From the NCBI GenBank assembly GCA_903939765.1, contig CAJAIK010000116.1:1-42154 (forward strand): a stretch of DNA of 42,154 nucleotides, in the 5' to 3' direction. The notes below the pieces were generated by a model. It was not told the DNA's origin, did no database searches, and saw only the letters and a program-made list of their open reading frames with translations. A program made the position numbers and the translations under genes. The number at the start of each line of letters is the position of its first letter. Position 1 is the first letter of the stretch. Positions 5,164 through 21,474 of the stretch are shown one piece after another. The DNA is from an uncultured Chlorobiaceae bacterium (lineage in GTDB: Bacteria; Bacteroidota; Chlorobiia; Chlorobiales; Chlorobiaceae).

Positions 5164-6114
5164 ATGACCGTTGAAGAGATCATCAAAATGCTCGATAATC
5201 CGGCGACCATTGGCGACGCTTTGCTTGAAGCGGCGAAGTTGCCGTTCAGGGGTGATGACAAGGTGCGCTTTGAACAAAAACGGCAGAGATATATTGATGG
5301 ATTGAGTGATCATGAAAGACCACGCTGGGTTGGTGAAATGAAAAACTTATTGTCACTCTGCGATGATTCATTTGACGACGACTCAGCCGAAGATGATTCT
5401 CGTGAGTCATGTCCCAGATGGCATCATTTGGATAAAAAAGATCTGAAAAATGCCTTTAGAGACTTATGCCTTGATCAAAAACAAAAAGTCAAGGTTGTTT
5501 TGATTGAGCCGAACTTGAATGCGTATTCGCTTCAACTTCATAACATTTTGTACTCATACTATAGACATGAATTTCGTCTACCTCAAAGTCGCATAAAAGG
5601 GAGCATAAAAGGAAGTCTGGACGATTATTTGAATATTGTAAATAAAAAATATCGCGAAAAACATTTTATGCACTATATGCGAAAATATTTTGGCATTACT
5701 AATGTCACATTAGAGCAAATTCCTTCCTGTTTTAAAAAGAAGGAAGAGAGAAAGCCTGAAGCTCATTTTATTGTGCAAAAGGTAACTTCTGATTTCAATT
5801 TTTCTGATTTCAATAAATATTACAAGTTATGGACCAATTTACAACCTGAAAAAACAATCATTCTTTTTATTCACCTAAAAGAACTACCAAAAGAATCTGC
5901 ACATTCTCCAGGTTTATCGAACTATTGCCTGTGTCGTTGTCATGAACATGAACAAGTGGTCGGTGAAGATTTTCAGGCATTATTTGGTGGGAAATCATTT
6001 GAACCTGGATATATCAAATTATGTAACTGCGATCCGATGACGTTCGCTGATGCAGTAGAAAAATTACAATTATTTGAAAATAGTGAAGACAAATCTAACA
6101 ATGGAAAAATATAA
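5164..6114 (+). CDS. Adaptor with shared module and probable inactive STAND-like domain
   Basis: A 316-residue protein. Residues 1-63 are the shared module (MTVEEIIKMLDNPATIGDAL to ERPRWVGEMKNLLSL), nearly identical to those at 4536 and 10658. After an acidic linker, residues about 98-310 form an alpha/beta domain with hydrophobic strands (KVKVVLIEP, HFIVQKV, EKTIILFIHLKEL) and no complete Walker A motif. This resembles the inactive STAND domains described with MoxR/vWA conflict systems, but I assign it from pattern only. Cysteine/histidine-rich segments (YCLCRCHEHEQ) are notable. Its end overlaps the MoxR gene start by 14 bp, implying one operon. Base composition drops to strongly AT-rich in the C-terminal half, unlike the neighbours, which suggests a separately acquired domain. 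Confidence 0.65.
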   Translation: MTVEEIIKMLDNPATIGDALLEAAKLPFRGDDKVRFEQKRQRYIDGLSDHERPRWVGEMKNLLSLCDDSFDDDSAEDDSRESCPRWHHLDKKDLKNAFRDLCLDQKQKVKVVLIEPNLNAYSLQLHNILYSYYRHEFRLPQSRIKGSIKGSLDDYLNIVNKKYREKHFMHYMRKYFGITNVTLEQIPSCFKKKEERKPEAHFIVQKVTSDFNFSDFNKYYKLWTNLQPEKTIILFIHLKELPKESAHSPGLSNYCLCRCHEHEQVVGEDFQALFGGKSFEPGYIKLCNCDPMTFADAVEKLQLFENSEDKSNNGKI

Positions 6115-7198
6115 TTTCTACAAAAATAGGGTAGAAGAAAACAAGAGGTTTAAGTCGGACGAACCCCCCTGGTTGCCATTCGAGTTGAGTCGGGATGAGC
6201 AGTTTCCCATGCTTAAACGTGACGAAGATCACCAATCTACGGGTACTATCAAACGGGGCAAAGAGTATAACCCTTCGGAGGCGTTGATACATGCGGTCAA
6301 TGTGGCGTTGATGCTGCATAAACCCCTGCTGCTGACCGGTGCACCCGGAACAGGAAAGTCCGATCTTGCCTGGCATCTTGCTCACCATTTTGGCTGGGGA
6401 GAGGTTGAACATTTTGCAACACGAACCGATTCTGTGGCAACAGATCTGCTCTACCGGTACGACAGCCTTGCCCATTTCCAGAAAGTGAATATTAAAAAAG
6501 AGTGTAGCGAGGAATTGACTGCGGCTCAAATTGAAGAGATGTTTATAACCTATGTTGCGCTTGGCCGGGCGATCTGTGACTCAATCGGTTACAATGATGA
6601 AAAAGTTTCCAAACGCAGGGTTGTACTTATTGACGAAATCGACAAGGCACCCCGCGACTTGCCGAACGATATCCTGACAATTATTGAGGAGATGAGCTTT
6701 GAAGTGCCGCAACTGAAAACAGCCGATGGCATAAAATATCCAAGAAAAGAAAAACCAATTTATAAAAAAATAGGCAATGAAGAGTTGAAGCCGGTGGTCA
6801 TCCTCACCAGCAATTCTGAAAAGACCCTGCCCGAAGCCTTTCTTCGCCGTTGTGTCTTTTTTCATATTCAAATGCCAGGCCCCATAGAATTGATGGAAAT
6901 TATGCTGGCAAAAAAATCGATTTTACCCGGTATCAAGAAGCAAGAGTGCGGTGAGTTTATCAAACTCTTTTTTACGATTCATGAACTGGTTAAAGGCAAA
7001 AAACCAGCCACACACGAATTGATTTTATGGATATGGTGGATGCGAAAGCATGGGTTTATACCAAGTGACATTTATCACTATGATAAAAATGCGGCAAGTT
7101 CCAAAACCCTGCTGAGCGGAATCTCTGTTTTGGTCAAGGAGGTTGATGATTGGGAAAAGATTACCAAGGCCATAACAACCAATACTCTCAAGTACTGA
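6101..7198 (+). CDS. MoxR-family AAA+ ATPase
   Basis: A 365-residue ATPase. Walker A is LLLTGAPGTGKSDLAWHLA and Walker B is RRVVLIDEIDKAPRDLPNDI. Sensor 1 is VVILTSNSEKTLPEAFLRRC, with an arginine finger-like FLRRC typical of MoxR proteins. MoxR ATPases usually work with vWA-domain partners; the next gene has such a region. The ATG at 6101 is chosen over an upstream in-frame TTG (6074). It overlaps the preceding gene by 14 bp, and its TGA overlaps the next ATG (TGATG at 7196-7200), so translation is probably coupled. Inferred role: ATP-driven assembly or remodelling switch that licenses the TIR effectors. Confidence 0.88.
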   Translation: MEKYNFYKNRVEENKRFKSDEPPWLPFELSRDEQFPMLKRDEDHQSTGTIKRGKEYNPSEALIHAVNVALMLHKPLLLTGAPGTGKSDLAWHLAHHFGWGEVEHFATRTDSVATDLLYRYDSLAHFQKVNIKKECSEELTAAQIEEMFITYVALGRAICDSIGYNDEKVSKRRVVLIDEIDKAPRDLPNDILTIIEEMSFEVPQLKTADGIKYPRKEKPIYKKIGNEELKPVVILTSNSEKTLPEAFLRRCVFFHIQMPGPIELMEIMLAKKSILPGIKKQECGEFIKLFFTIHELVKGKKPATHELILWIWWMRKHGFIPSDIYHYDKNAASSKTLLSGISVLVKEVDDWEKITKAITTNTLKY

Positions 7199-10059
7199 TG
7201 ACGGATACGCTGGCAACATATATTTCAGCAAACCGTCACTATCCGTTTGATGAGTTTTTTTCAATCCTGCAAGACCAGGGTTTCAGCTTTGGTGTCGATA
7301 CCTTTGAAACGGCACATTATGTCGTTATAAAAGCCATTGAGTCGGGTAATCTGGAGCGGCTCGATCTATGGTTATGTCCCGTTCTGGCTCATTCTGCCGA
7401 GCAGCAGGCAACATTTTTTGAACTCTATAAACGCCTCTTTATCCCTTTTCTCGAAGAGCAGTCTGAAGCTCTAGAAAAGGAAGAAAAACCTTCAATATCA
7501 GAGGTGCAGAGCGATGCTGCAACAAAAGCGGCCCCTCCCCGGCAAAGAGAGATGGACGCTGAGGAAGAGAATGAAAAAATTGTGGCCTCACTTAAAGCCC
7601 GAAGCAGCGGGTCATACATGCTTGAACGGTTTGTACAATCGACGGAGATTGAGAGCGATCCTGTGTCGCTCAGGGTTGTGCGTCAACTTCGCTACACGGA
7701 ACAGTCAGGCCGTTGTTCTTTTGATATCGAAAAAACGATTTGTCAAACCATTCATGAAGGGGGCATGGCCAAGCCGGTTTATACTGCGGATCGTCGCCAT
7801 ATCGAATATCTGATGTTGATTGACCGTCACAATTTGCGTGATCACAAGGCCCATCTCCATAACAACCTCTATGAGACTCTGAAAGCAAACAATATCTTTG
7901 TTGAACGTTTCTATTTCGATAACTCTCCGCTACTATGCCGTAATGAACATCATCCTGCTGGCATTGACCTGTCGGAAATTCTGAGTCTTCACGAACATGC
8001 GGCGCTCATGGTTTTTACCTATGGGCTCCAATATATTGATACGCTTCATCTTCGTATGTTCGAATGGGCTGATATTTTCAAACATTGGCAGCACCGCTAT
8101 TTTTACAGTTCAGTGCCTCCTGTCCTCTGGGGTGAGCGTGAGCGACTGTTGCAAGAGGTATTTCCCTTTGTATTGCCCTTTTCAGTTGAGGGAATGCAGG
8201 TTATGGCAGCCGATCTTTCGCATGCCTCCAATATTGACTCTGATTGCCTTAGATATTGGCAAGAGAGCGCCGATTATTCATTAGTGCCGATAAAAACCGG
8301 AGGCAAAAAGCTCGACTACATCGGGTTGTTTTTCAGCGCAGAGATAAAGCGCTGGATTGCTGCCTGTGCGATCTACCCCGAACTTGACTGGAATCTGACC
8401 CTTGCATTGGGCAAGATGTTTTCTACAGAAAAGAGTGTATTGCCTTCATACAAGAATATTAGCCAGTTGCTGCGTCTCAACTGGTTCACAAAAGGGACTA
8501 TTCCTGTTGCTTTTCGTTTGGCACTTCAGCAGCAGTGGCTGAGTTTGCAAGAGCGAGCCCAGGTGTATCAATTTTTGTACGATCAGCTCGCCCAGAACCT
8601 TCCACTCAAGGGCGAACCAGATTATGAGCAATGCTCCCTGCAACTTGCCGTTTACGAATTGCTTGCCCAAACAGATAAAGAGCTGTTCGAGAAAAAAGCA
8701 AAACAATTAGTCAATACTCTTGAGCAGGCGACGGATCTGCCCGACATGGTGAGCATTCATCTGATCAATGAGCACGAGTACTGTCCGGTATTTTTTGAAA
8801 TTCCGGATGATGTTTTGCGACTTATGGATATCGACCCCTCACTTATCAGACGCCGAGCTATCCCAAAAAATGTTTTTATTAGCTTTGCTTATAAGGATGT
8901 TGAGCGGGTTCGTCCGATTGCAGATGAGCTTGCAAAAATTGGCTGGTGTGTTTTCTGGGATCATAAAATTCCGCCTGGGATAAAATGGCCTGGATATCTA
9001 AAAGAAAAGCTGGATGAGTCACATTGTGTGCTTGTTGTTTGGTCACGTGATTCAATCAATTCCAATTGGGTTCATGCAGAAGTTGATGAGGCTCAAAAAC
9101 GGAATATTCTGATTTCGGTGCTTATTGATGATGTTGAGCCTCCATTTGGGTTCAGGAGTATTCAGGCGGCTGATCTCTCTGACTGGAATAATGACATAGC
9201 ACATCCGCAATTCCAGCAATGTCTTGAGGCAATTAATTCAAAAATTCCTCCTCGTAACTTTGTGCGCATACCCGCAGGTAAATTTACCATGGGGAGCCCG
9301 AAAGGTGAAGCGCAGCGAGATAATGATGAAACGCAGCACCAGGTCAAGGTGAGTGAGTTTTATCTTTGTAAATATGCGGTCACACTTGCCGAGTTTAAAA
9401 AATTTATTGAAGAATCAGGGTATCAGACAGAGGCTGAAAAAGCAAACAGCAGCAGGATTTGGGATGGCAAGGAATGGAAAGACAAAGAGGGCATCAACTG
9501 GCGGCATGGCGTATCGGGCAAGGCAAGGGAGGAAAATGAGCACAACCATCCGGTTTTGCATGTGAGCTGGAATGATGCCGTAGCCTATTGCAAGTGGATG
9601 TCGGATAAGACCGGAAAGTGCTTGCGTTTGCCGACAGAATCTGAGTGGGAATATGCTTGCCGGGCAGGAACAACCACACCGTTCAATACCGGTGAAAACC
9701 TGACAACCGATCAGGCAAATTATGACGGCAACTATCCGTATAACAGTAATCCGAAAGGGCTGTATCGGAAAAATACGGTTGCGGTTGACAGCTTTGCTCC
9801 CAATGCGTGGGGTTTGTATAATATGCATGGTAATGTGTATGAGTGGTGCAGTGACTGGTACGGAGACAAATATTACGAGGAGTGCAAGCAGAAAGGTACG
9901 GTTGAAAACCCGGAAGGAGCGCAAACCGGTTCGTACCGTGTCTTGCGTGGTGGCCTCTGGCGCAGCTATGCGGGGTACTGCCGGTCGGCTTATCGCAACC
10001 GCGCCGCCCCCGCCTACCGCTACGCTTTTGTTGGCTTCCGCCTGGTCTTCGTCCCGTAG
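7198..10059 (+). CDS. vWA-like/TIR/FGE-sulfatase fusion, DGR variable protein 1
   Basis: A 953-residue multidomain protein. Residues 1-85 are a helical N-terminus and about 86-135 a charged linker. Residues about 195-330 are a vWA-like region (EYLMLIDRHNLRDHKAHLHN, a degenerate metal-site strand), as in the vWA-MoxR-associated proteins. Residues about 555-665 are a TIR domain: KNVFISFAYKD, WCVFWDHKIPPG, and SINSNWVHAEVDEA with the likely NADase glutamate. Residues about 685-953 are a formylglycine-generating-enzyme-like (C-type lectin fold) domain: FTMGSPKGEAQRD, LRLPTESEWEYACRAG, NMHGNVYEWCSDWYG. The last 44 codons are the DGR variable repeat VR1. ATG 7198 overlaps the MoxR stop. No signal peptide or membrane segment is seen, so it is probably cytoplasmic. 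Inferred role: sensor (variable lectin-like tip) fused to a toxic TIR effector. It is unlikely to be a true sulfatase-activating enzyme. Confidence 0.88.
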   Translation: MTDTLATYISANRHYPFDEFFSILQDQGFSFGVDTFETAHYVVIKAIESGNLERLDLWLCPVLAHSAEQQATFFELYKRLFIPFLEEQSEALEKEEKPSISEVQSDAATKAAPPRQREMDAEEENEKIVASLKARSSGSYMLERFVQSTEIESDPVSLRVVRQLRYTEQSGRCSFDIEKTICQTIHEGGMAKPVYTADRRHIEYLMLIDRHNLRDHKAHLHNNLYETLKANNIFVERFYFDNSPLLCRNEHHPAGIDLSEILSLHEHAALMVFTYGLQYIDTLHLRMFEWADIFKHWQHRYFYSSVPPVLWGERERLLQEVFPFVLPFSVEGMQVMAADLSHASNIDSDCLRYWQESADYSLVPIKTGGKKLDYIGLFFSAEIKRWIAACAIYPELDWNLTLALGKMFSTEKSVLPSYKNISQLLRLNWFTKGTIPVAFRLALQQQWLSLQERAQVYQFLYDQLAQNLPLKGEPDYEQCSLQLAVYELLAQTDKELFEKKAKQLVNTLEQATDLPDMVSIHLINEHEYCPVFFEIPDDVLRLMDIDPSLIRRRAIPKNVFISFAYKDVERVRPIADELAKIGWCVFWDHKIPPGIKWPGYLKEKLDESHCVLVVWSRDSINSNWVHAEVDEAQKRNILISVLIDDVEPPFGFRSIQAADLSDWNNDIAHPQFQQCLEAINSKIPPRNFVRIPAGKFTMGSPKGEAQRDNDETQHQVKVSEFYLCKYAVTLAEFKKFIEESGYQTEAEKANSSRIWDGKEWKDKEGINWRHGVSGKAREENEHNHPVLHVSWNDAVAYCKWMSDKTGKCLRLPTESEWEYACRAGTTTPFNTGENLTTDQANYDGNYPYNSNPKGLYRKNTVAVDSFAPNAWGLYNMHGNVYEWCSDWYGDKYYEECKQKGTVENPEGAQTGSYRVLRGGLWRSYAGYCRSAYRNRAAPAYRYAFVGFRLVFVP
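9928..10059 (+). repeat. DGR variable repeat VR1
   Basis: These 132 bp end exactly at the TAG of the 7198 gene. Aligned without gaps to the template at 10346-10477 there are 18 differences, every one at a template adenine, and none at the 104 non-adenine positions. The changes are A to T, C or G and cluster in AAC/AAT codons. They alter, for example, GGNWNSNAR to GGLWRSYAG. The final 30 bp before the stop contain no adenine and are identical in template and targets, as expected for the initiation region of mutagenic homing. Confidence 0.95.
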
Positions 10060-10180
10060 TCAGTTGGCTGCTCATTCCGCTCTTTACTTTGAGCAAAGAG
10101 AGAGCTGACAAAAGAGTTGAGAACAGCAGCGAGGGACGAGCGGCTGTGCACAACTCTTTTTCGTCAGTGAACGACACCGT
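10060..10180 (+). other. Conserved post-VR1 block with nested hairpins
   Basis: This block, with the terminator after it, is over 90 percent identical to the sequence after VR2 (12413-12533). It holds CTCTTT/AAAGAG arms at 10080-10085 and 10095-10100 (alternative CTTTG-AG-CAAAG), then a long stem AAAAGAGTTG (10110-10119) with CAACTCTTTT (10151-10160), inside which ACAGC pairs with GCTGT. Hairpins just after the variable repeat are known target-recognition elements in DGRs; that role here is inferred. Confidence 0.65.
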
Positions 10181-10345: not shown

Positions 10346-10477
10346 GGTTCGAACCGTGTCTTGCGTGGTGGCAACTGGAACAGCAATGCGAGGAACTGCC
10401 GGTCGGCTAATCGCAACAACGACACCCCCGACAACCGCAACGCTAATGTTGGCTTCCGCCTGGTCTTCGTCCCGTAG
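10346..10477 (+). repeat. DGR template repeat (TR)
   Basis: A 132-bp non-coding copy of the 3' ends of the two FGE-sulfatase genes, rich in AAC/AAT triplets exactly where the genes vary. It has no start codon or upstream protein context; read in the VR frame it would encode GGNWNSNARNCRSANRNND and then the constant VGFRLVFVP. It differs from VR1 at 18 and from VR2 at 10 sites, all template adenines, out of 28 adenines available. It is therefore the template whose reverse transcription, with adenine-specific errors, rewrites the VRs. It lies between the two target genes, with no reverse transcriptase gene next to it. Confidence 0.95.
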
Positions 10478-10559
10478 CTCAAAGTAAAGTCGGATGACTG
10501 CCTCTGAACAGATTGATGGCCCTGTCCCTGTAATTTTCAGGGCAAATAGCAGACAATGC
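10478..10559 (+). ncRNA. Putative DGR template-RNA spacer
   Basis: This would be the structured 3' part of a template RNA. It starts with CTCAAAGTAAAG (10478-10489), the exact reverse complement of a string conserved after both VRs. It then has GCCCTG (10519-10524) pairing with CAGGGC (10538-10543), with an alternative CCCTG/CAGGG pairing. In the Bordetella phage DGR the RNA just after the template is needed to prime cDNA synthesis; by analogy this stretch is the candidate. A transcript has not been shown. Confidence 0.45.
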
Positions 10560-10619
10560 AATGCCCGTTGTTGGTAGGACGAGCCGGATAGCCGTTTCGA
10601 AGACTACGGGCATTTTTTT
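10560..10619 (+). terminator. Terminator after DGR template region
   Basis: AATGCCCGT (10560-10568) pairs with ACGGGCATT (10606-10614), followed directly by five or more T. The loop can form smaller internal hairpins. It would close a short stand-alone template RNA of roughly 300 nt. Confidence 0.75.
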
Positions 10620-10657: not shown

Positions 10658-12412
10658 ATGAGTATGACTGTTGAAGAAATTATCAGGATGCTCGATAATC
10701 CTGCAACTCTTGGCGACGCTTTACTCGAAGCGGCGAAGTTGCCATTCAGGGGTGACGACAAGGTCAGGTTTCAACAAAAAAGGCAGAGATACATTGATGG
10801 ATTGAGCGATCATGAACGGCCTCGCTGGGTTGGCGAAATGAAAGCTTTTTTGTCGTTGTACGAGCCGTCCAGTATTGACAAGAGAGCAGAGATGCCAGTC
10901 AAGGCGAATTGCAATGAGTTCAAGACTGATATTTTTATAAGCTATACCCGCAAAGATCTGAAACGGGTTGAGCCAATAGTCAAAGAGCTGCAAAAACATG
11001 GCTGGAGCGTTTTTTGGGATATGGATATTCCTCCGGGGGAGACATGGCGGAGTTATATCAAGAAGAGGCTGGATGAATCACGCTGCGTGCTCGTTGCCTG
11101 GTCTCACCTTTCCATCGGTTCCAAATGGGTCATTGCTGAAGCAGATGAAGCAGATAGACGGGGTATTCTGGTTCCAGCGCTTCTTGATGCTGTTGAGCCT
11201 CCATTTGGATTAAGCCATATTCATGCGGCTGATCTTTCTGACTGGAAAAATGACAGTTATCATCAAGCATTCAAGGAACTCGTGAATGCTGTTACTTCAA
11301 AAATATCTTCTTCAACACCAGCTCTCCCGGATACAACACCGGGTAGGGCGCCAGATACGGTTTCAGCTCCAGTAAAGGTATCCTCAACGTCGAAGCTGCA
11401 GCCGCTGCGTGCGAGGGTTGAAAAAGGGATATCAGCAGTTGCAGGCATAAGAATATGGCCAGCCCACAGCCAGCGAACAGCAATTGCCGTTGCGGTGGTC
11501 ATGATGGTTCTTCTTGCGGGTTTTGCCTATCGATATTTCAAAACTGAGCCACAACCACCGGTGCAGGCAACTGTTCAATCAGAGCGAGCATTAAGAGCAG
11601 TGCCAGCAAACTTTGTTCTGATACGCGGAGGCGAGTTTACGATGGGGAGCCCTGCGAATGAGCCTGATCACGAAAGCGATGAGACCCAGCATCAGGTGAA
11701 GGTGAGTGATTTTTATCTGTGCCGTTATGCGGTGACTGTTGCCGAGTTCAGGAAATTCGTTGAAGCATCGGGGTATCAGACTGATGCCGAAAAAGGAGAT
11801 GGCAGCTATGCCTGGGATGGTAACGCATGGCAGAAGAGAGCGGGAATAAACTGGCGTTATGGAGTCTCAGGTAGTGTGCGACCTCAGAGTGAAGAGAACC
11901 ATCCGGTTTTGCATGTGAGTTCGAAGGATGCTATAGCTTATTGTGACTGGTTATCGAAAAACAGCAATAAAAAATTCCGGTTGCCGACAGAAGCGGAGTG
12001 GGAATATGCTTGTCGGGCAGGAACTACAACGCCGTTCAATACCGGTGAAAACCTGACAACCGATCAGGCAAATTATGACGGCAACTATCCGTATAACAAT
12101 AATCAGAAAGGACTCTACAGGCAGAACACGGTTGCTGTCGACAGTTTTGCGCCCAATGCGTGGGGGTTGTATAACATGCATGGTAATGTGTATGAGTGGT
12201 GTAGTGACTGGTACGGAGACAAATATTACGAGGAGTGCAAGAAGAAAGGTACGGTTGAAAACCCGGAAGGAGCGCAAACCGGTTCGTACCGTGTCTTGCG
12301 TGGTGGCAGCTGGAGCAGCAATGCGGGGAACTGCCGGTCGGCTTATCGCTACCGCGACACCCCCGACGACCGCAACGCTGATGTTGGCTTCCGCCTGGTC
12401 TTCGTCCCGTAG
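10658..12412 (+). CDS. Adaptor-module/TIR/TM/FGE-sulfatase protein, DGR variable protein 2
   Basis: A 584-residue protein. Residues 3-67 are the shared module also found at 4536 and 5164. Residues about 90-200 are a TIR domain (TDIFISYTRKDLKR, WSVFWDMDIPPG, and SIGSKWVIAEADEA with the likely catalytic glutamate). Residues 201-270 are a Ser/Thr/Pro-rich linker. One transmembrane helix is at about 274-294 (AIAVAVVMMVLLAGFAYRYF). Residues about 315-584 are the FGE-sulfatase (C-type lectin-like) domain (FTMGSPANEPDHES, FRLPTEAEWEYACRAG, NMHGNVYEWCSDWYG), ending in VR2. The likely topology is TIR inside, variable lectin domain outside. The FGE half is nearly identical at DNA level to that of the 7198 gene, so one arose by duplication. 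ATG 10658 follows an AAAGGA site; ATG 10664 is an alternative. Confidence 0.88.
   Translation: MSMTVEEIIRMLDNPATLGDALLEAAKLPFRGDDKVRFQQKRQRYIDGLSDHERPRWVGEMKAFLSLYEPSSIDKRAEMPVKANCNEFKTDIFISYTRKDLKRVEPIVKELQKHGWSVFWDMDIPPGETWRSYIKKRLDESRCVLVAWSHLSIGSKWVIAEADEADRRGILVPALLDAVEPPFGLSHIHAADLSDWKNDSYHQAFKELVNAVTSKISSSTPALPDTTPGRAPDTVSAPVKVSSTSKLQPLRARVEKGISAVAGIRIWPAHSQRTAIAVAVVMMVLLAGFAYRYFKTEPQPPVQATVQSERALRAVPANFVLIRGGEFTMGSPANEPDHESDETQHQVKVSDFYLCRYAVTVAEFRKFVEASGYQTDAEKGDGSYAWDGNAWQKRAGINWRYGVSGSVRPQSEENHPVLHVSSKDAIAYCDWLSKNSNKKFRLPTEAEWEYACRAGTTTPFNTGENLTTDQANYDGNYPYNNNQKGLYRQNTVAVDSFAPNAWGLYNMHGNVYEWCSDWYGDKYYEECKKKGTVENPEGAQTGSYRVLRGGSWSSNAGNCRSAYRYRDTPDDRNADVGFRLVFVP
12281..12412 (+). repeat. 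DGR variable repeat VR2
   Basis: The terminal 132 bp of the 10658 gene. An ungapped comparison with the template shows 10 differences, all at template adenines. Five of these substitutions are identical in VR1 (the A to T at template 10352, AGG to GGG, one AAT to TAT, and AAC to CGC at two bases). This indicates a shared, already mutated ancestor or convergent outcomes. The adenine-free 3' end is identical to the template. Confidence 0.95.
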
Positions 12413-12533
12413 TCAGTTGGCAGCTCATTCCGGCCTTTACTTTGAGCAAAGAGATAGCTGACAAAAGAGTTGAGAACGGCAGCGAGGGACGAGCGGCTGT
12501 GCACAACTCTTTTTCGTCAGTGAACGACACCGT
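12413..12533 (+). other. Conserved post-VR2 block with nested hairpins
   Basis: The second copy of the block after VR1. It keeps CTTTACTTTGAG (12435-12446), the CTTTG-AG-CAAAG hairpin and the long AAAAGAGTTG/CAACTCTTTT stem. Differences from the VR1 copy are few. The CTCTTT arm is changed, so only the inner hairpin is common to both copies. Confidence 0.6.
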
Positions 12534-13227: not shown

Positions 13228-13356
13228 ACTCAATAGTCAAACTTTGGATTTTTTACCAAGACTGAAAACGCAATGGTTCGCTGGCGACGTTTTTTTTCTG
13301 CCAGACATCCCTCAAAATCAACATTGATAAACTCATTCAGTAAACAGGGAGGAGAA

Positions 13357-14263
13357 ATGAATGGGCAATGGCAAGGCAAGCAGTTGTTCAAGTGGTCAAG
13401 CGTACGCCGCATGTTGGTTATTTATTGTCTGGCTGGGCTCGCTCTTGCAGGTATAACGTCGGCAGAGATGCAGGCCGCGCAGGAATCATCGGGTTTTGTT
13501 TACATCCGGGGCGGGGAATTTGCGATGGGCAGCCCCGCAGGCGAAGTTGGCCGGGTGTACGACGAGACCCACCATCAGGTGAAAGTCGGTGACTTTTATT
13601 TCAGCATATATCCCGTAACGGTTGGCAGGTTTAAAGCATTTATCGAAGCATCAGGCTATCGGAGTGAGGCGGAAAAAGCGGGCGACCGTTGCAACTGGCG
13701 GTATGGGGTATCTGGCCGTAAGCGCCCACAGTCCGAATACAACCATCCGGCACTCTACGTGAGCTGGAATGATGCGGTGGCCTATTGCCGGTGGATGACC
13801 GCCAAAACAGGAAAGCACTTCCGGTTGCCAACTGAAGCGGAATGGGAGTATGCCTGCCGGGCAGGAACCACCACCCCCCTTCAATACCGGAGAGAACCTG
13901 ACAACTGCGCAGGCCAACTTTGATGGCATCTATCCTTACAAAAGTAATCGAAAGGGAATTTCCAGAAAGAATACCGTTGCTGTTGATGCTTTTGCTCCCA
14001 ATGCGTGGGGTTTGTACAACATGCACGGCAACGCATGGGAGTGGTGCAGCGACCTTTATGACGAGAGCTACTATGAAACATGCAAAGCTGCGGGCACCGT
14101 TGTCAACCCTCCCGGGCCAGCAGGCGATTCCACCGCAAACCACATTCTTCGCGGTGGCGGCTGGAACTACAGTGCGAAGTTCTGCCGGTCAGCCTCTCGC
14201 CATAATGACATTACGGCCAATCGTTACAACTACGTTGGCTTCCGGGTGGTTGTGGTGCCATAG
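13357..14263 (+). pseudogene. Secreted FGE-sulfatase-like protein, frameshifted
   Basis: A GGGAGGAG site precedes ATG 13357. Residues about 15-40 (RRMLVIYCLAGLALAGITSA) are a signal peptide. Then comes an FGE-sulfatase domain: FAMGSPAGEVGR, FRLPTEAEWEYACRAG. In a C6 tract at 13874-13879 one extra C shifts the frame, and the first frame stops at 13923. The domain continues in another frame (PFNTGENLTTAQANFDG, NMHGNAWEWCSDLYD, VGFRVVVVP) to TAG at 14263. Removing one C restores a full domain of roughly 300 residues. Possibilities are a true pseudogene, a slippage-controlled gene or a sequencing error. The 3' end does not follow the DGR template: it differs at many non-adenine sites. Confidence 0.8.
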
Positions 14264-16568: not shown

Positions 16569-18440
16569 ATGATTGAACCGCTTATACTCAGGCCGGACGA
16601 AGGCATCCTCACCCGCTACCCTGAACTGGCGAAGTTGGCCGCTGAGCTTTCGGAGGTCTATGCCGATCAGGAAAAACTTGTGACCGATAACGCCTTGCAG
16701 CTCATTGGAACCCTCTTGTGGCGTGCGCTCGATGCTGACGAGGCATTCCTGCAGGCCAGAAAGCGGGCAGGGCAGCATCTTCTGCCCATCGTCATTGAGA
16801 GCGGCAAACCGGAGATCCTGCACCTTCCGTGGGAAACGCTCTATCATCCTGAATCTGGTTTTCTTGGCCGCAGTGAGGGCTTTACCCTGTCGCGAGCCGT
16901 GCCCCCCACCGGAGCAGAGTTGCCCGCCATTGAAGATGGGCCGTTGAGAGTGCTGCTTTTTACCGCATTGCCTGATGACATTGGGGAAGAGGAGCAGCTT
17001 CGCATTGAGGAGGAGCAGGCGCTGGTGCTTGAGGCGCTTGGCCAGTGGCGGCAGAGCGGCCATGTACTGCTTGAAATGCCGGATGACGGGCGATTCAGTG
17101 AGTTTACCCACCAACTTCACCACTTCAGGCCGCACCTTGTCTATCTCAGCGGCCACGGCACCTTCAAAAAAGATTACCGCAACCATAACGACCGGGGATA
17201 CTTCCTGTTTGAGAGCGACAACGATGGAGGTGAGCTGGTTGATGAAGAGCAACTTGCAGCGGTATTTACCGGCACAACCGTGCAGGCGGTGATTCTCTCG
17301 GCATGTCACTCCGGCAAGGCATCGTCAGCCAGTTTGAACAACGGGTTGATGCAGAGGCTTGCCGACAAAGGCATCCCCCACGTTATCGGCATGAGGGAAT
17401 CTATTCTTGATCGCGCCGGGCTTCAGTTTGCCCGTGCCTTTCTTGGCGCATTGATGCAGCAGCAGAGCATTGCCGCCGCTTTGCAGCAGGCGCGGCGGGC
17501 CATCGTGCTGCCTCTCCGTGATGATGAGGAATTTCGTCAATCACCATTGGCTTTAATCTCGCTGGGGCAGTGGTGCCTGCCGATGCTGCTCAGCCATCAG
17601 TGTGATCGCCAGTTGGTCACCGGTCGCTTTACTCCGCAGCCGATGCGCCCGACCAATCATCGAAACAAGACTTTTAAGCAGCTCTCTTTACCGGACAGGT
17701 TTATCGGGCGACGCCGTGAACTGCGCAAGATACAGCGTTCTTTCCGGGAAGGAACAACCAGGGCTCTTCTGCTTGTTGGCGCTGGAGGAATGGGGAAAAC
17801 AGCCCTCGCAGGCAAGCTTATTATGAACCTCAAAGCTGATGGTTATGAGGTGTTTTGCCTCTCTTTTCGTCCAGAAAATAATTGGCGCTTCATGCTTTCG
17901 TCTCGTATCCCGTTTTCTCTTGATGACAAGCGAAGAGAAGCTTATGAAAAAGAAATTTCTAATCAGAAAGATCTTGTATTTCAGGCAGAATGTTTGTTTT
18001 CATTGTTACTTGAGCAGTTCGATGGAAAAGTGGCTTTATTGTTTGATAACCTTGAATCCGTTCAGGATCCCTCGACTTGCACTCTTACTGATATCGAGCT
18101 GTCCGAATTGATTACTATGGCGCTTGATTTGCAGGTAGATGGATTGTGGGTACTCCTCACCTCCCGATGGGCACTGCCGGAGTGGCGTGAGCAGCTCTAT
18201 CCACTTGGCAAACCGGTCTATCGCGACTTTCTTGCGGTTGCGCAACAGCAGAAGCTGCCAAAAGAGTTTTTGACTGACTTCAAACGTTTGCGTCAGGCTT
18301 ATGACCTGCTCGGAGGTAACTACCGGGCGCTTGAGTTTTTTGCTGCCGCCTTGCAGAAGATGAATACCCTTGAAGAAGAGCTGCTTGTTGCATCGCCTTC
18401 GGCAGGCGACAGAGGAGATACAAACCAACATGCTGCTTGA
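16569..18440 (+). CDS. CHAT protease-STAND NTPase protein (5' part of split gene)
   Basis: A 623-residue product. The caspase-like CHAT domain spans about 90-335, with the catalytic dyad His196 (VYLSGHGTF) and Cys246 (VILSACHSGKAS). A STAND/NB-ARC NTPase follows from about 375: Walker A GAGGMGKT at 404-411, Walker B KVALLFDNLE ending near 496, and LWVLLTSRWALPEW as sensor. After EEELLVA the frame runs into unrelated residues and stops at 18440, while the natural continuation (RLRQATEEIQTNMLLERV) is in another frame, so a frameshift lies near 18390. Family role: sensor-activated protease in bacterial programmed cell death or defence. Whether this copy is functional depends on the frameshift. 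Confidence 0.85.
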   Translation: MIEPLILRPDEGILTRYPELAKLAAELSEVYADQEKLVTDNALQLIGTLLWRALDADEAFLQARKRAGQHLLPIVIESGKPEILHLPWETLYHPESGFLGRSEGFTLSRAVPPTGAELPAIEDGPLRVLLFTALPDDIGEEEQLRIEEEQALVLEALGQWRQSGHVLLEMPDDGRFSEFTHQLHHFRPHLVYLSGHGTFKKDYRNHNDRGYFLFESDNDGGELVDEEQLAAVFTGTTVQAVILSACHSGKASSASLNNGLMQRLADKGIPHVIGMRESILDRAGLQFARAFLGALMQQQSIAAALQQARRAIVLPLRDDEEFRQSPLALISLGQWCLPMLLSHQCDRQLVTGRFTPQPMRPTNHRNKTFKQLSLPDRFIGRRRELRKIQRSFREGTTRALLLVGAGGMGKTALAGKLIMNLKADGYEVFCLSFRPENNWRFMLSSRIPFSLDDKRREAYEKEISNQKDLVFQAECLFSLLLEQFDGKVALLFDNLESVQDPSTCTLTDIELSELITMALDLQVDGLWVLLTSRWALPEWREQLYPLGKPVYRDFLAVAQQQKLPKEFLTDFKRLRQAYDLLGGNYRALEFFAAALQKMNTLEEELLVASPSAGDRGDTNQHAA

Positions 18441-19650: not shown

Positions 19651-19673
19651 TATTTCCAGTGGAGACGGCTATC

Positions 19674-20951
19674 ATGAATACGACGCAAAGCTTTTCATTG
19701 TTACGCCAGAAGGCAGGCTTGTCCATCGACAAAATTGCCCATATTACCGGGTACAGCCAGAGAGAGGTGTATCGCTGGGAGAAAAACGAGGTTGTACCCA
19801 GGAAGATTGTTCTTGACCAGCTCACAAGGATTGCCCAGCCATTGTCGGTTTATGGCAAAGGCTTTTCAAGCTTTACCTTCATTGATCTTTTTGCCGGTAT
19901 TGGAGGCATGAGAAAAGCTTTTGAAGAGCTTGGAGGCAGGTGCATTTTTACAAGCGAGTGGGATAAATATTCCCGTCAGACCTATCTTGCCAATTACGAG
20001 TGTGATCATGAAATTGGCGGTGATATAACCAAAATTGATGCCTGGGATATTCCGTCACATGATATTCTGGTAGCGGGTTTTCCCTGCCAGCCGTTTTCAA
20101 TTGCAGGAGTTTCCAAAAAAAATGCTCTTGGCAAACCTCATGGATTTGCTGACAAAACGCAGGGGACACTGTTTTTTGATGTGGCCAGAATTATTGAGTA
20201 CCATCGACCAAAGGCGATCCTGCTTGAAAATGTCAAGAATCTTCAGCGTCATGACAAGGGAAAAACTTTCGAAGTTATCAAGGAGACTCTCGCAGAGTTG
20301 GGATATTATTTTGACTGGAAAATTATTGATGCCGGTCACTGGGTACCCCAGCATCGGGAGAGAATATTTATTGTTGGTTTCCGGGAGGATTGCGGATTCA
20401 GCTTTGACCGTTTTGCTCTGCCAACCGGCAGCGAGCGCCCGGTCATAGAAACCATATTGCATTCTGAAAACGGCATGGAAGATGAGGAACCTCCCTATAC
20501 CATCGGCCCATTGGCAAGAATATCTGACCGCTACACCCTGTCGGATCATCTTTGGCACTATCTTCAGCAGTACGCTGAAAAACATCGAGCCAAAGGTAAT
20601 GGATTTGGATTTGGTCTTGTCGGGCCTCATGATGTAGCCAGAACACTTTCAGCAAGATATTACAAGGATGGTTCAGAGATACTGGTGAAGCAGGATGGAA
20701 AAAATCCCCGCCGGCTCACCCCGAGGGAGTGTTCACGGCTGATGGGCTTTGACACTCTGAGTGGGAACAGTTTTGTGATCCCTGTTTCGGATACCCAGGC
20801 TTACCGGCAGTTTGGAAATGCTGTTGTTGTGCCTGTGGTCAGGTCAGTAGCCCGATATATGCTTGAGTACCTGATGGATGGTGTTTCATCTGATCAGTTG
20901 CGTTTTGATTTTGGTGTTCTGATGTCTGAAAATGCTGTTCATTATGGCTGA
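19674..20951 (+). CDS. DNA (cytosine-5) methyltransferase with N-terminal HTH
   Basis: A 425-residue protein. Residues 1-60 form an XRE-like helix-turn-helix (LSIDKIAHITGYSQREVYRW). Then the C5-methyltransferase motifs: I FIDLFAGIGGMRKAFEELGG, IV GFPCQPFSIAG with the catalytic cysteine, VI LLENVKNL, VIII PQHRERIFIVGF, X YRQFGNAVVVP. ATG 19674 follows GGAG with 9-nt spacing. The neighbours (Vsr and an MvaI/BcnI-like nuclease) suggest a 5-base CCNGG-type target (CCWGG or CCSGG); the exact site is not proven. It protects host DNA from the nuclease at 21395. Confidence 0.93.
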   Translation: MNTTQSFSLLRQKAGLSIDKIAHITGYSQREVYRWEKNEVVPRKIVLDQLTRIAQPLSVYGKGFSSFTFIDLFAGIGGMRKAFEELGGRCIFTSEWDKYSRQTYLANYECDHEIGGDITKIDAWDIPSHDILVAGFPCQPFSIAGVSKKNALGKPHGFADKTQGTLFFDVARIIEYHRPKAILLENVKNLQRHDKGKTFEVIKETLAELGYYFDWKIIDAGHWVPQHRERIFIVGFREDCGFSFDRFALPTGSERPVIETILHSENGMEDEEPPYTIGPLARISDRYTLSDHLWHYLQQYAEKHRAKGNGFGFGLVGPHDVARTLSARYYKDGSEILVKQDGKNPRRLTPRECSRLMGFDTLSGNSFVIPVSDTQAYRQFGNAVVVPVVRSVARYMLEYLMDGVSSDQLRFDFGVLMSENAVHYG

Positions 20952-21474
20952 TGTTGTTTCATCGGAAACACGAAGTCGCATGATGTCCGGCATCAGGTCT
21001 AAAAACACCATTCCTGAAATGATGGTACGAAAAGGAGTTCATGCAAGGGGGTTCAGGTTCAGGCTTCATGTTCCGGGATTGCCGGGCAAGCCTGATCTTG
21101 TTTTTCCGAAATACCGTGCAGTTATTTTTATACATGGATGTTTCTGGCATGCCCATGAATGCGCACTTTTCAAGTGGCCGGCAACAAGAAAGGATTTCTG
21201 GAAAGAGAAGATTGGCAAAAACAGATGCCGTGACCTTGCTGTTATGGATGAACTTGCACGGCAAGGCTGGAGGGTTCTGCTTGTCTGGGAGTGTGCCCTG
21301 AAAGGCAAGGAGCGAAGGCCAATTGACGAAATTGTTGATTCCTGTGCGGAATGGCTGCTTTCAAGCTCAACAAAACGTGAAATCAGGGGGCAACATGCGA
21401 CTATCGACACTGCAATCACTCATGCGAAACAAGGGTTGCCGGACGATGTACTCGAAAGTACTCTCCGCAAATGA
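20944..21474 (+). CDS. vsr: Very short patch repair endonuclease (Vsr)
   Basis: A 176-residue protein, MADVVSSETRSRMMSGIRSK, then GKPDLVFPKYRAVIFIHGCF with WHAHEC, the Vsr active region and zinc site, and FWKEKIGKNRCRD. It nicks 5' of the T in T:G mismatches produced by deamination of 5-methylcytosine, so it follows C5-methyltransferase genes. The start overlaps the methyltransferase stop by 8 bp. The C-terminus extends about 35 residues past the usual end and overlaps the next gene by 80 bp. Confidence 0.93.
   Translation: MADVVSSETRSRMMSGIRSKNTIPEMMVRKGVHARGFRFRLHVPGLPGKPDLVFPKYRAVIFIHGCFWHAHECALFKWPATRKDFWKEKIGKNRCRDLAVMDELARQGWRVLLVWECALKGKERRPIDEIVDSCAEWLLSSSTKREIRGQHATIDTAITHAKQGLPDDVLESTLRK

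Follow-up and report, generated by a model that had tools for sequence, protein, structure and literature searches.

In a clade of DGRs that carry an HRDC protein, the sequence directly after the template repeat (TR) is complementary to a site just downstream of the VR of each target gene. We refer to the two elements as the guide and the guide target. We show below that the complementarity is exact and restricted to true targets, that the two elements evolve by compensatory change at a fixed spacing, and that the trait is confined to HRDC DGRs that have neither Avd nor a DNA hairpin. We consider it likely, with a probability of approximately 0.75, that the post-TR guide serves RNA-guided homing; the identity of the pairing molecules is inferred, and there is no experiment on the guide clade.

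The window, the whole stretch of DNA analysed, is contig C116 (42,154 nucleotides) of a 2.98-Mb draft genome, and its closest matches within the genome set are Chlorobiaceae. The TR (10346-10477), on the forward strand like the other DGR features described here, lies between two genes encoding TIR and FGE-sulfatase domains that end in VR1 and VR2. Target gene 1 (7150-10059; CLec-type, true start not established) gave Pfam matches to TIR_2 (E 5.6e-21) and FGE-sulfatase (E 3.6e-66) and carries VR1 (9928-10059) at its 3′ end. Target gene 2 (10658-12412; TIR_2, E 1.7e-23; FGE-sulfatase, E 5.7e-65) carries VR2 (12281-12412) in the same position. The TR is 86% identical to VR1 and 92% identical to VR2, and all of the mismatches, 18 and 10 respectively, fall at TR adenines; a remote VR on contig C27 differs from the TR at 19 adenines and at no other position. 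Two criteria for a DGR are thus fulfilled, namely a TR/VR pair differing at TR adenines only and a CLec/FGE-type variable protein with the VR at the C-terminus of the FGE-sulfatase domain. The TR has no RT or accessory gene on its own contig: no match to an RT gene was found there, neither HRDC nor Avd was found within its 42 kb, and two RT genes adjoin the other TRs of the genome. A search of the window against Rfam gave no hit at gathering thresholds.

Other features were noted around the target genes. An FGE-domain gene spread over two overlapping frames (13273-14263), apparently frameshifted, has a VR-like 3′ end that is 69% identical to the TR; this degenerate FGE copy (14146-14263) has no guide target and is not the obvious target of any TR. 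A MoxR-like AAA ATPase is encoded upstream (6074-7198) and a CHAT-NTPase protein downstream (16569-18440) of the TIR-FGE targets, and these neighbours resemble the conflict-system settings of clade 5 DGRs (PMC10907252). At 19659-21474 a C5 cytosine methylase is followed by a look-alike of a Vsr-type endonuclease, suggesting a possible restriction-modification island beside the DGR, the Vsr part of which is inferred from sequence alone. A large, near-identical inverted repeat, AAAAGAGTTG...CAACTCTTTT, is found 3′ of both guide targets (10110-10160 and 12463-12513) and is followed by terminator-like stems, and the other VRs of the genome have an analogous but different inverted repeat, CCAACATTTTGG...CCAAAATGTT.

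An earlier note had claimed that CTCAAAGTAAAG (10478-10489) starts directly after the TAG of the TR, and that its exact reverse complement CTTTACTTTGAG occurs at 10082-10093 and 12435-12446, 22 bp after VR1 and VR2. Both claims held, except that the exact match is 13 nt and not 12, as the G of TAG pairs too. The guide, GCTCAAAGTAAAG at 10477-10489, is the exact reverse complement of the guide targets, CTTTACTTTGAGC, after VR1 (10082-10094) and VR2 (12435-12447); at VR1 the pairing partner lies 35 nt after the VR, which is the mode of the family. Looser similarity extends beyond the 13 nt, to approximately 25 nt, the post-TR sequence GCTCAAAGTAAAGTCGGATGACTGCC resembling the reverse complement of the whole post-VR stretch, GCTCAAAGTAAAG..CGGAATGAGC(A/T)GCC. 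Because the longest match in 2550 shuffled post-VR sequences was only 10 nt, chance is excluded for the 13-nt match. When the whole genome was searched for CTTTRCTTTGAGC, five occurrences were found, at four post-VR sites and, inverted, at the post-TR site, and nowhere else; the reversed control had none.

The guide stands at the 5′ end of the sp, the structured non-coding RNA region that follows the TR (10478-10618) and has a TGAACAG block and a 3′ stem ending in a T run; the extent of the transcript is inferred. Directly 3′ of the guide is a mini-hairpin, AGTC-GGAT-GACT (10488-10499), read from the sequence; in the sp alignment of relatives the letters of its stem change and the pairing is kept (AGCC-GGAT-GGCT and others). 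The sp was aligned in 48 relatives, with the TGAACAG block conserved, and the copies of the TR-sp stretch on contigs C87 and C16 are 84% and 81% identical to that of the window. RNAalifold run on the full sp alignment yielded two weak stems only and no clean consensus. In predicted folds the guide was only modestly open (0.48 unpaired, compared with 0.41 for the rest of the sp). The sp segment CGAAGAC (10598-10604) complements GTCTTCG, which lies close to the 3′ end of the TR, and is a candidate for a primer-template duplex; similar segments are paired in the predicted folds of C87 and of one relative, L100.

A search of the same genome with the TR-sp sequence detected two further TRs, on C87 and C16, each beside a DGR-type RT, together with five further VRs. 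The three TRs carry three different guides, GCTCAAAGTAAAG, GCTCAAAAGCAAAG and GCTCAAGAGTAAAG. After the C16 VR comes a sequence that complements the C16 guide exactly over 19 nt, and the C87 VRs match the C87 guide with one wobble or a 1-nt bulge. HRDC is present in both of these complete DGRs (PF00570, E 3.8e-14 and 5.4e-14). VRs on contigs C27 and C55 retain guide complementarity, the guide target of the C27 VR differing by one G-U. As the C27 VR differs from the window TR at adenines only, the orphan TR acts in trans or did so in the past. It is presumably served by one of the two complete DGRs, C87 or C16, and this service is inferred. The orphan TR (10346-10618) is the parent of VR1, VR2 and the C27 VR with zero non-A mismatches, an instance of trans-acting DGR parts in one genome.

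The earlier note would have been refuted by a lack of conserved complementarity in related DGRs. That check was run and the refutation failed: complementarity is conserved throughout a whole RT clade, with massive compensatory change. A scan with the two RTs of the genome gave 79 loci, of which 63 had A-specific TR/VR pairs, 83 pairs in total. Nearly all of the 63 loci have the same arrangement in other letters, for example CTCATGAGTAAAGCCG, GCTCAAATTGTGGC, CTTAAAAGGAAGGAT, GCTCAAAGGAATAGCCG and CACATAAGAAAGCC, and the approximately 60 related DGR loci that share it are found in Chlorobiota, Bacteroidota and single Pseudomonadota, Planctomycetota and Calditrichota genomes. Among 51 non-redundant TRs, exact complementarity to their own post-VR sequence ran at its longest over a median of 13 nt and over at least 10 nt in 40, a length reached by 3.8% of foreign post-VR pairs, 0.08% of shuffles and no same-sense control. 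When 36 distinct guides were aligned with their targets, 91.7% of cells were paired, compared with 65.3% after column shuffling and 32-46% with slid partners. In these 36 rows both sides had changed in 160 cells where 48 were expected, a result seen in 0 of 500 shuffles, and at the core positions 307 of 324 cells were paired, compared with at most 193 of 324 when whole-row partners were shuffled. Registers were picked by best match, which favours pairing, and the foreign-pair control used the same rule. The distance from the VR to the paired G, before CTCA, had a median of 34 nt (interquartile range 31-35, mode 35).

The mismatches between guide and target, read as sp RNA against the target sense strand, comprised 14 G-U and 4 A-C (p=0.015); the test is small, and the rows are related by descent. 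This lean towards G-U favours pairing between an RNA strand and the target sense strand, whether as DNA or as mRNA. Approximately nine loci in the clade have fewer than 10 exact nt (L082, L083, L085 and L108 among them), some of them with a wobble or a 1-nt bulge and some unexplained.

Of the 129 rows in an RT tree, 50 had at least 10 nt of complementarity, and 49 of these fell in one 60-row clade (SH-aLRT 100). The sole outside row, L159, is placed among BPP-1-like phages, shows its match only with the wider search range used there, and was not counted as genuine. Early branches of the guide clade (L243, L249, L254 and L281) have only 8-9 nt. All guide-clade loci tested had HRDC (69/69) and no detectable Avd, as did the early branches, where absence of Avd means absence in tblastn with three Avd queries; among BPP-1-like loci, Avd was present in 52 of 53. 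The small HRDC protein gene lies directly upstream of the RT gene in the guide clade, and it is to the HRDC-type DGRs that the guide element belongs; 'accessory loci (avd or HRDC)' have been named previously (PMC3240598).

A guide common to all DGRs was rejected, as BPP-1-like and other viral, divergent chromosomal and plasmid DGRs are without long complementarity, with rare exceptions. For BPP-1 and 61 other viral DGR loci, matches were not longer than in shuffles in nearly all cases. Approximately 35-40 divergent chromosomal DGR loci likewise had no long complementarity, rare exceptions apart, and no guide complementarity was found in six plasmid DGRs (cyanobacterial, Alteromonas and Prosthecochloris). 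Among these, the cyanobacterial plasmid DGRs tested bear Avd. A 9-mer in BPP-1, CTTGGCGGG (p ~0.03), was dropped because it is not kept in relatives. One exception among the viral loci is a contig with a distant RT (L178, 4607-4735), on which the post-TR region has a 14-nt complement to a site 57 nt after the VR.

The guide targets had also been described as lying inside a hairpin. This is only weakly true at VR1, where a 6-bp stem (CTCTTT/AAAGAG) encloses a 9-nt loop; approximately 4 bp can form at VR2, and the stem is not conserved. In the guide class, folding of the post-VR DNA did not exceed that of shuffles (mean z -0.1), whereas in BPP-1-like DGRs the mean z was -2.57, and a perfect stem of at least 6 bp follows the VR in 7% of the former and 82% of the latter. 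A DNA hairpin as a conserved element was therefore rejected for the guide class.

In BPP-1, five IMH mismatches set directionality (PMC3240598). In the family studied here, the last 30 nt of TR and VR showed no non-A difference in 57 of 83 pairs, and the window TR and both of its VRs are identical at non-A positions and so have no IMH/IMH* mismatches. Since the TR and VR 3′ ends are mostly identical in the guide clade, a BPP-1-type IMH/IMH* difference cannot give directionality there. The guide complement is present only after targets and never after the TR. It is thus plausible, as the earlier note suggested, that the complementarity distinguishes template from target. In these traits the guide clade is the opposite of the Avd-bearing BPP-1-like DGRs, which have the hairpin and lack the complementarity.

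The guide class shares with the BPP-1-type DGR (Bordetella phage, RT and Avd) A-specific transfer from TR to VR, a DGR-type RT, structured post-TR RNA and an element just downstream of the VR. BPP-1 relies on the IMH/IMH* difference and on a DNA hairpin that is GC-rich and has a GRNA loop (PMC3240598), and its relatives are without post-TR/post-VR complementarity. In the guide class, by contrast, hairpins do not exceed chance, the IMH difference is mostly absent, HRDC takes the place of Avd, and there is complementarity between RNA and target. In most BPP-1-like DGRs (L111-L177) a different sp segment, (A)GTGGTCA at about sp 48-56, exactly complements the VR IMH, TGACCAC, and fits the differing TR IMH* less well; we take this segment to end at the BPP-1 priming adenine. 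In L162 a matched change is seen, with TGACCACA in the VR and TGTGGTCA in the sp. It is possible that the sp segment at the start of the cDNA in BPP-1-like DGRs pairs better with target than with template. This would amount to RNA-target pairing of a second kind, of which specialists may already be aware.

The window also shares features with the RT clade 5 conflict-system DGRs (Thiohalocapsa PB-PSB1 and others, PMC10907252), which are chromosomal, with several loci per genome, trans activity, and TIR and FGE/CLec targets beside a MoxR-like ATPase; membership of clade 5 has not been established. In group II introns, whose RTs are related, a short RNA segment of the retroelement RNP pairs with the DNA target (EBS-IBS). 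The guide class differs in having no intron or splicing, in a guide that lies outside the copied sequence, and in information that replaces a repeat instead of being inserted, and the comparison is one of analogy only.

In the mechanism that we propose, the post-TR sequence would be the 5′ end of the structured sp segment that follows the template in the DGR transcript, and the guide would be the initial ~13 nt of this segment (as many as ~20 in relatives), base-pairing with the target sense strand just downstream of the VR. The cDNA copied from the TR is antisense and would anneal to the VR sense strand, with the guide annealing 3′ on the same strand. In this way guide RNA, the remainder of the sp and the cDNA joined to it would together form a single antisense strand, colinear with the target on which it lies. 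In BPP-1 the sp RNA folds and binds the RT-Avd complex, and an internal sp adenine primes the cDNA within the TR 3′ end (PMC12875486). If this priming scheme holds in the guide clade, the guide would stay joined to the cDNA as RNA, in an arrangement that can be likened to the RNA primer preceding an Okazaki fragment. Such a model would fit two points given in PMC12875486, the lagging-strand preference and the Okazaki-like intermediate that Naorem et al. proposed. The priming site and sp length are extrapolated by analogy from BPP-1, whose accessory protein differs. Guide pairing would place the cDNA, select targets in cis and in trans, and spare the TR, because what lies downstream of the TR is the guide and not the sequence with which it pairs. 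Since HRDC domains, which are found in RecQ-type helicases, bind nucleic acid, a helper role for HRDC in pairing would be a natural, though untested, assumption. That pairing guides homing, as had been suggested, is well supported by conservation, but there is no direct evidence that the guide pairs or that it acts in homing.

The rival that survives best, though we regard it as unlikely, is that the guide has as its partner not DNA but the target mRNA, in its 3′ untranslated region, and so either recruits the RNA complex to a transcribed gene or regulates the target. Pairing with target mRNA would yield the same covariation, the guide target lies just past the stop codon in probably transcribed sequence, and a preference for G-U suits RNA-RNA as well as RNA-DNA pairing. 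Against it, the fixed distance of ~35 nt to the VR is not needed for mRNA pairing alone, and it leaves unexplained why the element replaces the DNA hairpin and the IMH difference.

Complementarity alone does not say which strands pair, and the cDNA might instead start further downstream and copy the guide, the DNA complement of which would anneal to the antisense target strand. This is very unlikely, as cDNA synthesis in BPP-1 is initiated by an sp adenine inside the TR 3′ end (PMC12875486), the mismatches favour the opposite strand reading, and the cDNA would need to switch target strands at the VR end. Very unlikely too is intramolecular folding, in which a single transcript would span VR1 and the TR and a long-range stem would close the template region. 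The gap between VR1 and TR is just 286 bp in the window, which would allow for it; however, an RT gene and ~1.6 kb intervene in C87 and C16, C87 also has a VR downstream of its TR, and the VRs on C27 and C55 keep the complementarity, so that the stem in cis is rejected because trans VRs carry the guide target.

The remaining two rivals are all but excluded. A post-VR DNA hairpin or cruciform as in BPP-1, with the post-TR match as a by-product, has in its favour the 6-bp stem at VR1 and the loop-specific recognition known in BPP-1 (PMC3240598), but neither VR2 nor the family retains the stem (z -0.1, compared with -2.57 in BPP-1-like DGRs) and the complementarity co-varies with the post-TR sequence. 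A functionless relic of an inverted duplication, similar through descent or copying, would suit the imperfect similarity to ~25 nt in Chlorobiota, but not the 36 different guides in several phyla, each matched by its own targets with sharp boundaries and spacing; neutral drift would break the complementarity, and copying the guide into the post-VR site would itself require RNA annealing there.

No earlier description of a guide in HRDC-type or other DGRs was found in the open-access literature searched, which did not include subscription papers and preprints on DGR RNA. How the mutagenized cDNA finds and enters its target is incompletely understood (PMC12875486). This is the least understood step of the DGR cycle, and the covariation of guide and target gives a directly testable answer to it for a whole clade. 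On a bolder reading, which we would neither press nor discount, Avd-less HRDC DGRs form a separate mechanistic class in which an RNA guide of ~13 nt outside the template picks the target, guide RNA and mutagenized cDNA make up a single antisense strand that anneals to target DNA in single-stranded form, and targets could be reprogrammed by rewriting the guide and its complement. RNA-guided homing, if true, would account both for the sparing of the TR in the absence of IMH mismatches and for the recognition of remote VRs in trans. It would also supply a simple rule for predicting targets and for retargeting the system. DGRs would then be split by accessory protein into two modes of target recognition, Avd with a DNA hairpin and HRDC with an RNA guide.
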